Below are positions 32,119 to 46,793 of a stretch of 64,000 nt of DNA, in pieces; positions within the stretch are counted from its first letter, which is position 1; every line of letters begins with the position of its first letter. Where the stretch lies: NCBI GenBank assembly GCA_017480195.1, contig JAFVBE010000007.1, positions 1 to 64,000 of the forward strand, written 5' to 3'. The translations under genes were made by a program, and so were the position numbers. The stretch comes from Lachnospiraceae bacterium. Its GTDB lineage: Bacteria > Bacillota > Clostridia > Lachnospirales > Lachnospiraceae. The notes under the pieces are model-generated. The model had not been told where the DNA came from. It made no database searches and saw only the letters and a program-made list of their open reading frames with translations.

Positions 32119-33297
32119 ATGGACGGTATGTTATCTCAAGAAGAGATAAACGCATTACTTGGAGATTTGAATGCAGATTCTTCCGATAGTTCGTCAGGCG
32201 GTGGCTCCGGTGGAGAACTTAGTTTAGAAGAAAGAGATGCCATTGGAGAGATATCCAATATATGTATGGGTACAGCGGCTACTACCCTTTATTCTTTAGT
32301 TAATCAGAAGGTGTTAATTACAACACCTATTGTAGAAATAACAACTTGGGATGATATGTTATCAAACTATGCCAAGCCTTCTGTATTTATTAATATACAT
32401 TACAGAGAAGGTATAGATGGAAATAATGTATTGATATTAAGAGAAGAAGATGTTAAAGTTATTACTGATTTGATGATGGGAGGAGATGGACTAAATCCTT
32501 CTCCTGAGCTCACAGAACTGCATATGAGCGCAATATGCGAGGCTATGAATCAGATGATGGGCTCATCAGCAACATCACTTTCATCAATGCTTGACTGTAA
32601 GGTGGATATTAGTCCTCCGGAAGCAGAGCTTATTGATATGACTGGTGATATTGATCCTACGAAGATTCCTGCTTTTCTAAAAGGGGAATTTGCTATGGTA
32701 ACCTTCCAGATGACGATTGGAGAACTGGTTGACAGTACAATGATGCAGCTTTATCCAATTGATCTGGCTAAAGAGTTATATAAAAGATTTACCAGTAGTT
32801 CAGAAGAGAAGGCAACGCCTGCACCTCCGCCTGCACCAAGTGCACCGGAACCTGCACCGGCTCCGGCGCCACAGCCGGCACCACAGCCTGATCCTTCTTA
32901 CAATATGGCGAATCAACAAATGATGGGGCAGCCAATGATGGGACAGCCTATGATGGGGCAGCCGATGATGGGACAGCCTATGATGGGGCAGGATGTAAAT
33001 GTGCAGAATGTACAATTTAAAGCCTTCAACCCTATGCCTAATCCGGCATTACAGCAGGAAAACATTGATTTGATAATGGATGTTCCTCTTGATGTATCCG
33101 TAGTATTAGGTAGAACTAAGAAATCCATTAAGGAAATCTTAGAGTTCGCACCGGGAACTATAGTTGAGCTTGACAAGCTCGCCGGTGAACCGATTGATGT
33201 TATGGTCAATCAAAAGTTAGTTGCCAGAGGCGAGGTTGTTGTTATAGAAGAAAGCTTTGGTATAAGAATTACCGACATAATAAAGGAAAAAATGTAA
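32119..33297 (+). CDS. fliY: Flagellar motor switch phosphatase FliY (FliN/CheC fusion)
   Basis: 392 residues. FliY dephosphorylates CheY-P and forms part of the C-ring. A FliM-like CheY-binding peptide (LSQEEINALLGDL, about 5-17) is followed by a CheC-type domain (about 37-225). Phosphatase motifs EISNICMGTAATTL and ELHMSAICEAMNQMMGSSATSL supply the E...N pairs. A Pro/Ala linker and a short MMGQP repeat (268-291) lead to the SpoA/FliN domain (about 312-390, VPLDVSVVLGRTKKSIKEIL). It starts 6 nt after fliM. Confidence 0.95.
   Translation: MDGMLSQEEINALLGDLNADSSDSSSGGGSGGELSLEERDAIGEISNICMGTAATTLYSLVNQKVLITTPIVEITTWDDMLSNYAKPSVFINIHYREGIDGNNVLILREEDVKVITDLMMGGDGLNPSPELTELHMSAICEAMNQMMGSSATSLSSMLDCKVDISPPEAELIDMTGDIDPTKIPAFLKGEFAMVTFQMTIGELVDSTMMQLYPIDLAKELYKRFTSSSEEKATPAPPPAPSAPEPAPAPAPQPAPQPDPSYNMANQQMMGQPMMGQPMMGQPMMGQPMMGQDVNVQNVQFKAFNPMPNPALQQENIDLIMDVPLDVSVVLGRTKKSIKEILEFAPGTIVELDKLAGEPIDVMVNQKLVARGEVVVIEESFGIRITDIIKEKM
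32920..32991 (+). repeat. Fifteen-base tandem repeat inside fliY (MMGQP, 4.8 units)
   Basis: Five near-identical units encoding MMGQP (the last lacks Pro). Units differ only at third positions (GGG/GGA, CCA/CCT/CCG), suggesting recent slippage expansion. It lies in the flexible linker and should tolerate length change. Confidence 0.9.
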
Positions 33298-33312: not shown

Positions 33313-33675
33313 ATGGCAAAGAGTATACTTATATGTGATGATGCAGCATTTATGAGAATGATGATTAAGGATATCTTAGTCAAGAATGGTTACAATATCG
33401 CAGGCGAAGCTGAGAACGGTGCAAAAGCTGTTGAAAAGTACGCTGAGACTAAACCTGACTTGGTGCTTATGGATATCACTATGCCTGAGATGGATGGCAT
33501 TCAAGCTTTGAAGAAGATTAAGGAAGGCGATCCTAATGCCAGCGTTGTAATGTGCTCAGCTATGGGTCAGCAGGCGATGGTTATTGAGTCCATTCAGTCA
33601 GGAGCCAGAGATTTTATCGTTAAGCCTTTCCAGCCTGATCGTGTACTTGAAGCGGTTAAAAAGGCAGTAGAGTAA
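33313..33675 (+). CDS. cheY: Chemotaxis response regulator CheY
   Basis: 120 residues, a stand-alone receiver domain. Phosphorylated by CheA, it binds FliM/FliY to control rotation. Visible residues: acidic pocket DD (about 9-10), phosphoacceptor Asp in LVLMDITMPEMDG (near 54), Thr/Ser in VVMCSAMG, and Lys in IVKPF (near 106). Embedded between fliY and fliO, as in B. subtilis. AAGGAG precedes the ATG. Confidence 0.96.
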   Translation: MAKSILICDDAAFMRMMIKDILVKNGYNIAGEAENGAKAVEKYAETKPDLVLMDITMPEMDGIQALKKIKEGDPNASVVMCSAMGQQAMVIESIQSGARDFIVKPFQPDRVLEAVKKAVE

Positions 33676-42026: not shown

Positions 42027-43097
42027 ATGAAAAAAATATTATTAATTGATGACTCTGCACTCATGAGAAGGGTGCTATCTGCTATAATAAATGAAACGAA
42101 TGAATACACAGTTGCTTATACAGCGGCTAATGGCGAAGAAGGCTTGAGAATTATTGAATCTCACAAGGATATACTTGCTATAATCTGTGACATCAATATG
42201 CCTAAGATGACAGGTATTGAGCTTCTTTCGACCATTCACGAAAAGGGAATTTTCATTCCGTTTATCTTACTTAGTTCAAGAAATGATGCGGCATACACTA
42301 TAGCTGCACTTGAATTAGGCGCTTTGGATTTCCTTAGAAAACCTGAAAACATCTACCATATGGAAAGTCATAATGACTTTACCGATAAGCTTACATCTAC
42401 CCTTAAGCTTGCCGAAGAGGTAAAGAATAAGCCGACTCCTACGCATCTTACACCGATTAAGACGCAGACGAAGGCTGATAATTCCTTAGGCTTTACGCCT
42501 GTTAAGGCAACGGGTAACAAGCAGAGACTTGTTGCACTGGTATCCTCTACGGGTGGACCAAGGGCGTTAAAGGCGGTTATACCTAAGCTTCCGGGCAATC
42601 TTGCTGCTCCGGTGGTTATGGTACAGCACATGCCGGTGAGCTTTACTGCTACACTTGCTGAAAGACTTAATGAATTAAGCGCCATGAGAGTAAGTGAAGC
42701 CAAGGAAGGAGATATGGTTAAGAAAGGTCATGTATATCTTGCAAAAGGAGGTAAGCATCTTAAGGTTATAAAGAAAAATAATCAGTAGTATATAACACTT
42801 GATGATTCTCCGGCTGTTGTGGGATTAAAGCCTTGTGGAAATCTTATGTATGACAGTCTGGTTGATTCGATTTATGATGAGATAGTTTGTGTGGTTCTCA
42901 CAGGTATGGGAGCCGATGGTACTAAGGGCATTGTAAATCTTGCAAAACACAAAAAAATTTATGTTATCGCACAGAACGAGGCTTCATCGACAGTTTATGG
43001 TATGCCGAGAGCTATATATGAAGCAGGACTATGTGATGAAGTATGCGATTTGAATGATATTGCAAAAGAAATAACAAAGAAAGTAGGGGTGCTGTAA
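42027..43097 (+). pseudogene. cheB: cheB, chemotaxis methylesterase, interrupted by in-frame TAG
   Basis: The frame encodes a complete CheB (about 355 codons) except for one TAG at 42786-42788, codon 254. Upstream: the receiver domain with phospho-Asp D55 (CDINMPKM) and the start of the methylesterase domain with S174 (SSTGGPR) and H201 (VQHMP). Downstream, in the same frame with no indel: ITLDDSPAVVGLKPCGN and TGMGADG, whose Asp (codon 297) completes the Ser-His-Asp triad. The codons are AAT-AAT-CAG-TAG-TAT, so a single C-to-T change of a second CAG would explain it. Without readthrough the product lacks the catalytic Asp and should be inactive. A restart at GTG 42819 has no ribosome site. 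Sequencing error is an alternative. The stop overlaps cheA (TAATG). Confidence 0.85.
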
Positions 43098-45214
43098 TGG
43101 ATTTAAGCCAATATCTTGAAATTTTTATTGATGAAACAAAGGAGCATATACAGACATTGAATGATCAGGTTCTTATATTGGAAGCAGAGCCGGAGAATAT
43201 TGATACTGTAAATGAAATCTTCCGTGCCGCCCATTCACTTAAGGGTATGGCAGGAACTATGGGCTTTAAGAGGATGCAAAGACTTACACATGATATGGAA
43301 AATGTATTCTCTGAGGTTCGTAACGGTAAGCTTAATGTTAATCCTGATATCGTGGATGTCGTGTTCAAGTGTCTGGATTGTATAGAGGGTTATCTTGACA
43401 ACATTATGAATACAGGTGATGAGGGAACAGAGGATAACGAAGAAGTTATCAATGTTCTTAATGATATATTGCAGCAATCAGGAAACACCGCTCCGCATAC
43501 TGAATCGGAGGATGCACCTGCAGCGGAAGACAAGCCTGCTTCAGATGCTGAGGATGCTCCGGCAGAACAGTCCGGTTCCGATGCGCCAAATGAGCGCAAA
43601 AAATATCTTTCTATTCCTATAGCTGACTTTGAGAAGAATGCTATGCAGGATGCAAAGGACAAGGGAATGCATGTATATGCAACTACTGTATACATACAGG
43701 AGAGCTGTCTTCTTAAGGCCGCGAGAGCATTTTTAGTATTCAAGGGTGTCGAGGATAAGGGTGAGATAATCAAGTCGGTTCCAAGTGTTCAGGATATTGA
43801 GGACGAAAGATTTGATTTTGATTTTTCAATGTTCATTATATCAGAGCATTCCATAGATGAGATTAAGAAGGTTATAGAAAATGTTTCTGAGATAGAGGAA
43901 GCCGTAATTGAGGAATTTGATATTCCAAGCGAGGTTGAGGATACAACTCCTGTAGCAGAGGAGAAGAAGGAAGAAAATACTGAGAAGGCTGAGACTGCCA
44001 AGGAAGAGAAGAAGCAGTCAGGCAGCAAGCATGGTAAGCCTGTTGTCAACCGTTCAGTCAGGGTTGATATTGAGAAGCTTGATGATTTGATGAATATTGT
44101 ATCCGAGCTTATTATCGCTAAGAATGGTCTTGTATCGGTTACAAGTGAGCTTGCAGCTACAGACCAGTCCTTCAATGAACAGATAGAGTACCTTGAGAGA
44201 ATCACTACTAACATTCATGAATCAGTTATGAAGGTTCGTATGGTGCCTATTGAAAGCGTAGTAAACAGATTCCCGAGAATGATAAGAGACCTCTCCAAGA
44301 AGCTTAACAAAGAGATGGAACTTATCATGACCGGTGAGGAGACAGAGCTTGACAGAACTGTCATAGATGAAATCGGTGATCCTCTTATGCATATGTTGAG
44401 AAATGCTGCTGACCATGGCCTTGAGGATACCATAGACAGATTAAAGATAGGCAAGCCTAAGGTTGGTACAATCAGACTTGATGCATATCAGGATGGTAAC
44501 AGTGTTACCATCGAGGTATCGGATGATGGTGCCGGTGTGGATGTCGAGAGGGTTAAGCAAAAGGCTATAGAGAAGGGACAGATTACTGAGGAACAGGCAG
44601 AGTACATGACTGAAAAGGAAGCTATAGACTTATTGTTCATGCCGGCATTCTCTACAGCAGAGAAGATATCCGATGTATCCGGAAGAGGTGTTGGTCTTGA
44701 TGTTGTTAAGAACAAGATTGAAGGCCTTGGCGGTGATGTTGAGGTTAATTCGGTGCTTGGTGAGGGAACTACATTCATAGTAAGACTTCCTCTTACACTT
44801 GCCATTATTCAGGCGCTTATGGTTGATGTGTCCGCTGAGAAGTATGCTATACCTCTTAATTCAATCGAAACTGTTGAGGAAATCTCAGAGGATGATATAA
44901 AGTATGTACATTCAAAAGAGGTAATTAACTTAAGAGGTACTGTAATTCCTATTGTAAGACTTAATGAGGTACTTGATATTGAGCCTGTCGAAAGAGAAGA
45001 TGATGAGTTCGAAAGCGATGACAGCCTGACTGTTGTAATCGTTAAGAAGGGTGATAAGTTCGCAGGTCTTGTAATAGACAGACTTCTCGGACAGCAGGAG
45101 ATAGTTATCAAGCCTTTGGGTAAATTTATAAGAGTTCCTAAGATGATAAGTGGTGCTACTATTCTTGGTGATGGTGAGGTTGCACTGATAATTGATTCAA
45201 ATACATTAATTTAG
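43097..45214 (+). CDS. cheA: Chemotaxis histidine kinase CheA
   Basis: 705 residues with the five-domain layout. P1 phosphotransfer has H46 in IFRAAHSLKGMAGTMGF. P2 is flanked by acidic, Ala/Pro-rich linkers (about 125-170 and 275-312). P3 dimerisation helices are near 325-385. The P4 ATPase has the N box (MHMLRNAADHGLED), G1 (EVSDDGAGVD) and G2 (GRGVGLDVVKNKIE). The CheW-like P5 fills the C-terminus. It phosphorylates CheY and CheB and couples to receptors through CheW. The ATG overlaps the cheB stop. Confidence 0.97.
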   Translation: MDLSQYLEIFIDETKEHIQTLNDQVLILEAEPENIDTVNEIFRAAHSLKGMAGTMGFKRMQRLTHDMENVFSEVRNGKLNVNPDIVDVVFKCLDCIEGYLDNIMNTGDEGTEDNEEVINVLNDILQQSGNTAPHTESEDAPAAEDKPASDAEDAPAEQSGSDAPNERKKYLSIPIADFEKNAMQDAKDKGMHVYATTVYIQESCLLKAARAFLVFKGVEDKGEIIKSVPSVQDIEDERFDFDFSMFIISEHSIDEIKKVIENVSEIEEAVIEEFDIPSEVEDTTPVAEEKKEENTEKAETAKEEKKQSGSKHGKPVVNRSVRVDIEKLDDLMNIVSELIIAKNGLVSVTSELAATDQSFNEQIEYLERITTNIHESVMKVRMVPIESVVNRFPRMIRDLSKKLNKEMELIMTGEETELDRTVIDEIGDPLMHMLRNAADHGLEDTIDRLKIGKPKVGTIRLDAYQDGNSVTIEVSDDGAGVDVERVKQKAIEKGQITEEQAEYMTEKEAIDLLFMPAFSTAEKISDVSGRGVGLDVVKNKIEGLGGDVEVNSVLGEGTTFIVRLPLTLAIIQALMVDVSAEKYAIPLNSIETVEEISEDDIKYVHSKEVINLRGTVIPIVRLNEVLDIEPVEREDDEFESDDSLTVVIVKKGDKFAGLVIDRLLGQQEIVIKPLGKFIRVPKMISGATILGDGEVALIIDSNTLI

Positions 45215-45226
45215 TGGAGGTGCAAT

Positions 45227-45679
45227 ATGGATAATAATGTTGTAGTAAGTGATGAAAAGCAATACATAATTTTAAAATTTGACAGTGAGCAGTATGGTAT
45301 TGACATATCATACATAGATAATATCGTAAGATTAACACCTATAACAAGAGTTCCACACACTCAGCCATACTTTTTAGGTATAATCAACCTGCGTGGTGAG
45401 GTTATTCCCGTTATGAGTATGAGAGGGAAATTTGAACTTCCATTTAAGGAGAATACAAATGCATCAAGAATTCTTATTATAAAATATGAAGGTGCTAAGA
45501 TAGGTATATTGGTAGACGAGGTCAAGGAAGTTGTGACATTGGCTGATGAGGAGATTGAAAAGGTTTCCGCTGAGAATCAGGAAGCAAGAACCTACCTTAC
45601 AGGTGTTGGCAAGTACAACGAGATTCTTGTATCAATATTAAATATACCTGCATTAATAACAGATATTGAAAACGAGTAG
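45227..45679 (+). CDS. cheW: Chemotaxis coupling protein CheW
   Basis: 150 residues, a single CheW domain linking receptors to CheA. Recognisable stretches are KFDSEQYGIDISYIDNIVR, ITRVPHTQPYFLGIINLRGEVIPVMSMR and IGILVDEVKEVVTL. A strong GGAGGTG precedes the ATG, 12 nt after cheA. Complete and ordinary. Confidence 0.96.
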   Translation: MDNNVVVSDEKQYIILKFDSEQYGIDISYIDNIVRLTPITRVPHTQPYFLGIINLRGEVIPVMSMRGKFELPFKENTNASRILIIKYEGAKIGILVDEVKEVVTLADEEIEKVSAENQEARTYLTGVGKYNEILVSILNIPALITDIENE

Positions 45680-45690
45680 GAGTGAGGTTT

Positions 45691-46311
45691 ATGAGCAATA
45701 ATGATTCTGCTTATATAACAAATGTTAGAAATACGCTTACTGAATTGGGAAATATAGGTGCCGGAAATGCATCAACATCTCTTTCAGTACTCTTAAAATC
45801 TATGATATCCGTCAGTCCGCCTGAGGTTAAGCTGTGTGATTTCAGAGAACTTGAGAATGCGGTTGGCATTTCGGAGGAGGAATTGGCTGTTGGTGTATTC
45901 AGTACTATTGATGGCGAGATAGATGCTGTAATTTCATTTATAATGCCTAAGGATGATGCTAAAAATCTCGTAGGTATGGTTATGGGTGAAGATGTTGAAT
46001 GGGATTCTGAGATTGGAAAATCAGCAATAAGCGAGATATCCAATATCTTAATTGGTTCTTATGTAGCATCACTTGAAAATCTGACAAATGCAAAGGTCAG
46101 ATACACTTTACCTGAAATATGTATAGATATGTTAGGAGCAATCCTTAGCGTGCCATATATTGAATTCAGTCAGATAAGTGATAAATCATTACTTTTAAGT
46201 TCTGAATTTAAAGTGGGAGATTATAAAATCGACGGACATATAATAATGATTTCCAGTCCGCATTCCTTTGACAAGCTTATGGACAGACTTGGAGTTGGAG
46301 GCGTAGTATGA
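45691..46311 (+). CDS. cheC: Chemotaxis phosphatase CheC
   Basis: 206 residues. CheC dephosphorylates CheY-P and acts with CheD in adaptation. Two phosphatase motifs are visible: ELGNIGAGNASTSLS (about 15-29) and SEISNILIGSYVASL (about 110-124), each with the Glu-Asn pair. The ATG at 45691 sits 8 nt after TAGGAG; a GTG at 45682 overlaps that site. The stop overlaps cheD by 4 nt (ATGA), as expected for the CheC-CheD pair. Confidence 0.93.
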   Translation: MSNNDSAYITNVRNTLTELGNIGAGNASTSLSVLLKSMISVSPPEVKLCDFRELENAVGISEEELAVGVFSTIDGEIDAVISFIMPKDDAKNLVGMVMGEDVEWDSEIGKSAISEISNILIGSYVASLENLTNAKVRYTLPEICIDMLGAILSVPYIEFSQISDKSLLLSSEFKVGDYKIDGHIIMISSPHSFDKLMDRLGVGGVV

Positions 46312-46793
46312 GTAATATTATAAGGGTTGGTTTGGCTGATATGAACATCTGCCGCGCACCTGACAAGATTACTACCGTAGGACTTGGTTCGTGTGTAGGA
46401 GTTGTAATATATGATACTTCTTCTAATATTGCGGGACTTGCTCATATTATGCTGCCTGACAGCACAAAAATGAACAACAATTCAAATAAATTAAAGTTTG
46501 CTGATACCGGTATTGATATGCTTATGACGAAGCTTAAGGCCTCAGGTATCAGGAAAGATAATTTGAAATCCAAAATCGCCGGTGGGGCGGCGATGTTTAA
46601 TTACCTGCTAAAATCAAGTATAGGAAATGTCGGAGAGAATAATGTGGCTGCTGTTAAGGATAAGCTCAAAGCTCTTAATATTCCTATAGTTGCCGAGGAT
46701 GTTGGGCTTAATTATGGACGAACCATAATATTTGATCCTGTAACCTGTGAGCTGACAATCGTAAGAGCAGGAAACGACAGATACATAATATAA
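46308..46793 (+). CDS. cheD: Chemoreceptor glutamine deamidase CheD
   Basis: 161 residues. CheD deamidates receptor glutamines and is sequestered by CheC. The catalytic Cys lies in GLGSCVGVV (near 28) and the His in GLAHIMLPDS (near 45). KIAGGAAMFN and RTIIFDPVTCELTIVRAG are also typical. It overlaps cheC by 4 nt. With cheB interrupted, CheC/CheD and CheY may carry most of the adaptation (inference). Confidence 0.94.
   Translation: MSNIIRVGLADMNICRAPDKITTVGLGSCVGVVIYDTSSNIAGLAHIMLPDSTKMNNNSNKLKFADTGIDMLMTKLKASGIRKDNLKSKIAGGAAMFNYLLKSSIGNVGENNVAAVKDKLKALNIPIVAEDVGLNYGRTIIFDPVTCELTIVRAGNDRYII

Follow-up and report, generated by a model that had tools for sequence, protein, structure and literature searches.

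The window analysed here is a stretch of 64,000 nucleotides of DNA from a Lachnospiraceae bacterium, and belongs to a contig of 99,749 bases (C13). It carries a chemotaxis locus in which cheB lies between a PilZ gene and the genes cheA, cheW, cheC and cheD. The cheB frame (42027-43097) translates as 253 residues, a TAG at codon 254, a further 102 residues and a final TAA, and the TAG at 42786-42788 is its single interruption, with no frame change or indel across the gene. The features of the locus are as follows.

32119..33297, forward strand: fliY-like gene, with CheC-like and FliMN_C domains
33313..33675, forward strand: cheY-like gene, with a single response-regulator domain
42027..42788, forward strand: first part of cheB including the TAG; 253 codons encoding the response-regulator domain, linker and first half of the methylesterase domain (translation, Pfam)
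42546..42548, forward strand: cheB codon 174, Ser, catalytic by homology (conserved column)
42627..42629, forward strand: cheB codon 201, His, catalytic by homology (conserved column, 1a2o alignment)
42786..42788, forward strand: in-frame TAG, cheB codon 254, in a variable column (sequence)
42789..43097, forward strand: remainder of cheB, encoding the second half of the methylesterase domain in 102 codons followed by TAA (Pfam, invariant positions)
42915..42917, forward strand: cheB codon 297, Asp, catalytic by homology, 3' of the TAG (conserved column, 1a2o alignment)
43097..45214, forward strand: cheA, with Hpt, P2, H-kinase_dim, HATPase_c and CheW domains
45227..45679, forward strand: cheW (PF01584)
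45682..46311, forward strand: cheC (PF04509, PF13690)
46308..46793, forward strand: cheD (PF03975)

The piece of cheB before the stop matched PF00072 (Response_reg) at residues 4-110 and PF01339 (CheB_methylest) at residues 169-248, corresponding to positions 1-80 of the 174 in the latter profile, and the piece after the stop matched positions 87-174 of the same 174, the Pfam match of each piece being above the curated cut-off. On the NCBIfam model NF001965 (CheB, 357 positions) the first piece spans positions 5-252 and the second 257-353; scored singly these gave 218 and 97.5 bits, both below the cut-off of 293, as against 330.9 bits for the CheB protein of the sibling genome described below. 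S174, H201 and D297, which we take to be the CheB catalytic triad, are conserved in all 46 aligned rows and lie within stretches that align to the solved structure 1a2o, in agreement with this assignment. The domain order over the whole gene is that of the solved CheB proteins with an N-terminal response-regulator domain (1a2o, 6ymz), and the triad aligns with theirs; the window gene differs in having a TAG that falls after the His and before the Asp codon, and the placing of codon 254 within the CheB fold is a putative one, based on alignment. With Ser174 and His201 before the TAG and Asp297 after it, the methylesterase domain is split: the frame ends past position 80 of 174 in PF01339, and under translation table 11 Asp297 lies beyond the stop, so that neither a complete domain nor a complete triad is found in one product. 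The coverage of the domain and family profiles, the conserved triad and a sibling gene whose corresponding 356 codons are uninterrupted together indicate that the two pieces are halves of one gene and not a chance frame. Both the single frame broken by one TAG and the parting of Ser and His from Asp, as described in an earlier sequence-only reading, are thus borne out by translation, Pfam matches and the residues conserved in all 46 rows.

Among the genomes compared, the nearest to that of the window is G013, the Lachnospiraceae MAG RGIG3763 (source, roe deer abomasum), here called the sibling. A sibling contig of 31,671 bases covers positions 30257-56586 of the window with conserved gene order and approximately 87% identity over the main 19.6 kb. 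The sibling cheB is 92% identical to the window cheB which, with the conserved gene order, supports both the homology and the operon place of the interrupted gene. Matches on this contig were obtained for 29 of 36 window genes, the other 7 being beyond its end, and none of the sibling's 29 best matches contained a stop in a comparison that was run from the window frames and is blind to truncation of other window genes.

A search of 61 genomes gave some CheB match in all of them, several through the response-regulator part only; among the matches listed, no best CheB row other than the window's contained a stop, and a weak second match (31%) in G039 had a TAA. An alignment of 46 distinct rows, which leaves out the partial matches L023-L028, L082 and L088, showed no stop in the cheB of any of the 45 relatives. 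A premature stop absent from relatives is what is expected of a recent nonsense pseudogene, and the same count (0/45) runs against programmed readthrough, for which the stop should be conserved at the same place. A wider draw from the order showed a CheB domain in 133 of 196 genomes, with no stop among the matches listed (150 rows by our count, the window's own not being among them). The alignment with relatives that had been proposed as a check found the gene open in the sibling and in 45 of 45 relatives. The column of the TAG is variable, with 12 residue types and one gap in the 45 relatives (His 11, Cys 7, Tyr 7, Val 4, Pro 3, Thr 3, Glu 2, Ala 2, Ser 2, Asn, Met and Ile 1 each). The proposal that the context CAG-TAG-TAT fits a C-to-T change, which requires an original Gln codon, is not supported, as the sibling has Glu at this column and Gln occurs in none of the 45 relatives, with Glu in 2.

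The part of the gene after the stop retains the character of a CheB coding sequence. Between the window and sibling genes we counted 73 synonymous and 28 missense codon changes upstream of the stop (253 codons), and 12 synonymous changes and 1 missense change downstream of it (102 codons). With outgroups, the sole missense change after the stop (residue 311) was assigned to the branch of the window, while those before the stop fell 6 to the window, 11 to the sibling and 11 to neither with certainty. The window keeps all 54 of the cheB positions that are invariant in the 45 relatives, including the 22 that follow the stop, and the earlier description of the downstream coding as family-like holds good. 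The few missense changes and the retained invariant positions indicate that the break is young, or is absent from the true sequence, or that the downstream part is still translated, which are the three options originally put forward. If it is assumed that the part after the stop is untranslated, that half of the synonymous changes lie on the window branch and that there are three missense chances per synonymous one, so few missense changes would be improbable had the break existed for more than roughly a quarter of the branch (P about 0.03 at 0.26). Under these simple assumptions a long untranslated history after the TAG is unlikely.

Synonymous divergence is itself lower after the stop (12/102 codons) than before it (73/253 codons; Fisher p 0.0005), and on our reading of the table the ratio of the two is below those of 32 other pairs of relatives, some of which share the direction less strongly. 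Positions 42801-43200 of the window, from just after the TAG into cheA, show only 19 differences from the sibling in 400 bases, as against mostly 8 to 18 per 100 bases in nearby stretches, possibly reflecting local recombination.

On balance we favour an ordinary recent nonsense allele, which probably interrupts the only cheB found in this genome. A single CheB domain was identified in an assembly that is 84.73% complete, such that a second copy may sit in the missing part. As in nonsense-interrupted recent bacterial pseudogenes, there is a single premature stop, an intact frame after it and open copies in relatives; no difference from such genes was found, and the downstream part of the window gene is undecayed so far. 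A recent nonsense mutation would have put the TAG into this gene, and normal termination there would give a product of 253 residues comprising the response-regulator domain and an incomplete methylesterase domain which, without the Asp, would be predicted not to demethylate receptors. The ATG of cheA overlaps the final TAA of cheB and is preceded by AGGGGTG, so cheA may be translated from its own start despite the break.

The remaining chemotaxis genes bear on what such a loss would mean. The genome also encodes one intact CheR, a CheV-like protein (CheW and response-regulator domains), FliY and CheY, and has 11 MCPsignal matches, one of them inside a broken hydrogenase-MCP gene. CheB is reportedly required for responses to negative stimuli, to go by the title of a study by Kirby from 2000. 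With CheR, the 11 MCPsignal matches, CheC, CheD and the CheV-like protein all remaining, the nonsense allele would probably lead to skewed receptor methylation with partial adaptation through CheC, CheD, CheV and CheY, and motility would probably not be abolished. The suggestion that loss of CheB leaves a CheC/CheD route is in keeping with this gene set: CheC and CheD are encoded downstream, and together with CheR, the CheV-like protein and FliY they make a methylation-independent route plausible. The set resembles that of Bacillus subtilis type chemotaxis in having CheA, CheW, CheC, CheD, CheR, a CheV-like protein and FliY, but differs in that CheB is interrupted. A passage of a B. subtilis study (PMC340952) describes CheC, CheD and CheV as adding adaptation control, and strains without cheBCDR as still partly adapting or oscillating. 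Were the allele real and common, it would represent a natural loss of cheB in a gut member of the Lachnospiraceae that keeps CheR, CheC, CheD and the CheV-like protein, and could serve as a natural test of the extent to which methylation-independent routes suffice. A literature search on CheB in Lachnospiraceae found nothing relevant.

A consensus error or a mixture of strains, in which the main population is without the TAG and has an intact cheB, is less probable but carries appreciable weight. The genome is fragmentary, with 2,398,997 bases (2.40 Mb) in 63 contigs, 84.73% completeness and 5.47% contamination, and appears to be a metagenome bin; the part of cheB after the stop looks as if it is under normal selection, and column 254 is a tolerant one in the 45 relatives, all of which would fit an error or mixture. 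Against this, the 1.157 Mb sampled contains no N, and a lone substitution error is rare in a well-covered short-read contig. If the TAG is an error, the case is a caution on inferring gene loss from a single metagenome bin.

Amber suppression or leaky termination, in which a fraction of ribosomes decodes the TAG and yields full-length CheB, is the sole reading that would surprise, and we consider it improbable. It would account for the conserved coding after the stop, which continued readthrough would maintain, and for the position of the TAG, at a column where many residues are tolerated. A tRNA family search returned 30 matches, 27 of them above the cut-off, and ARAGORN run on these loci identified 27 distinct tRNA genes and also a tmRNA; none of the 27 has a CUA anticodon, in a tRNA set that is incomplete, with Ala, Ile, Phe, Tyr and Asn not found in the incomplete genome. 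The gap in the set leaves room for suppression, and the lack of CUA among the tRNAs found weighs against it. Two release-factor genes are open, one with SPF and the other with PET at the corresponding place, motifs which we take to mark RF2 and RF1, respectively.

Stop usage was assessed in 1,156,918 bases from 14 contigs, the window included. Frames of at least 200 codons ended in TAG 172 times, in TAA 494 times and in TGA 115 times (781 in total), and a further in-frame stop followed within 5 codons for 69 of 172 TAG, 191 of 491 TAA and 59 of 115 TGA stops. TAG is thus a normal terminator without extra back-up stops and, with the putative RF1 gene also open, genome-wide recoding of TAG was rejected. 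The RNA fold after the stop is unremarkable (z -0.36; sibling 0.06), and the absence of a stop at this column in the 45 relatives also speaks against suppression. Folding of the 65 bases leading up to and spanning the TAG gave a z of -2.05, with 13 of 200 shuffles as good. A literature search on amber readthrough and internal stop codons found nothing. The sequence-only reading had held editing or suppression to be the most interesting alternative, and no positive evidence for it emerged; of the check that it proposed, the search for an amber-suppressor tRNA gave no CUA anticodon in the incomplete set, and that for other internal TAGs found further breaks.

A scan of the same 1.157 Mb for same-frame continuations, which frameshifts escape, flagged 74 stops (38 TAA, 31 TAG and 5 TGA), giving TAG a higher share (31/74) than among terminal stops (172/781). 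For 57 of the 74, a start preceded by a loose Shine-Dalgarno match lay within 25 codons, and for 17 none did, but this automatic rule also places cheB among the 57, and junctions and breaks were therefore sorted by eye. A first scan of 460 kb, with 15 continuations (10 TAG, 5 TAA), had raised TAG recoding as a candidate, which was rejected as these were mostly tight operon junctions with a start soon after the stop. By eye and Pfam, four in-frame breaks were judged firm and three less sure:

C13:42786, TAG: cheB, firm
C34:10453, TAG: hydrogenase-MCP fusion, firm
C34:28967, reverse strand, TAG: gene with a pilin-type N-terminal motif, firm; second piece without a Pfam match
C34:61961, TGA: DUF234 gene, firm; 36-codon first piece without a Pfam match
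C16:2695, TAA: RHS-like gene (by eye), less sure
C29:48444, TAA: candidate without Pfam support, less sure
C27:65693, TAG: ANTAR protein, near its end, less sure

That TAG accounts for three of the four firm breaks, including two in chemotaxis genes, favours suppression and is the result most against an ordinary nonsense allele, though it is not strong evidence; one firm break is TGA, and tight same-frame gene junctions account for part of the TAG share in the scan (32/93 TAG in this genome and 9/31 in the one-contig relative G005), both of which weigh on the other side. At tight other-frame junctions TAG is rarer, with 40/204 and 18/76, respectively. The same scan of 400 kb of G005, with a start limit of 10 codons, left two breaks by eye, one TGA and one TAG, and the rates of interrupted genes are low and alike in the two genomes. 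The broader proposal, in which certain internal UAG codons are decoded in this lineage, perhaps through a suppressor tRNA encoded in the part of the genome that is missing, with production of both full-length CheB and a hydrogenase-chemoreceptor fusion as a result, is quite improbable.

A split CheB, in which translation restarts beyond the TAG and the two pieces together form an active enzyme, is highly improbable: in-frame starts are present (GTG 42819, and ATG 42846 with a weak GGAA 8 bases upstream), but a product starting at ATG 42846 would be missing codons 254-273, which lie in mid-domain, and none of the 45 relatives has a split gene.

Among the other interrupted genes, the one with the pilin-type motif (C34:28967, reverse strand) has 83 codons before its TAG and 133 after, and an N-terminal methylation motif. 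The TGA break in G005 lies in a topoisomerase-I-like frame, named by eye (C1, approximately 449090, forward strand). The hydrogenase-MCP gene (C34:9964-11913, reverse strand) encodes an iron-only hydrogenase domain and an MCP signalling domain with the TAG between them; the sibling copy instead has a frame change near codon 115, and that of G024 has stops as well as a frame change. This receptor gene thus looks to be often broken in the group, with open frames of about 650 codons in other members of the genus.
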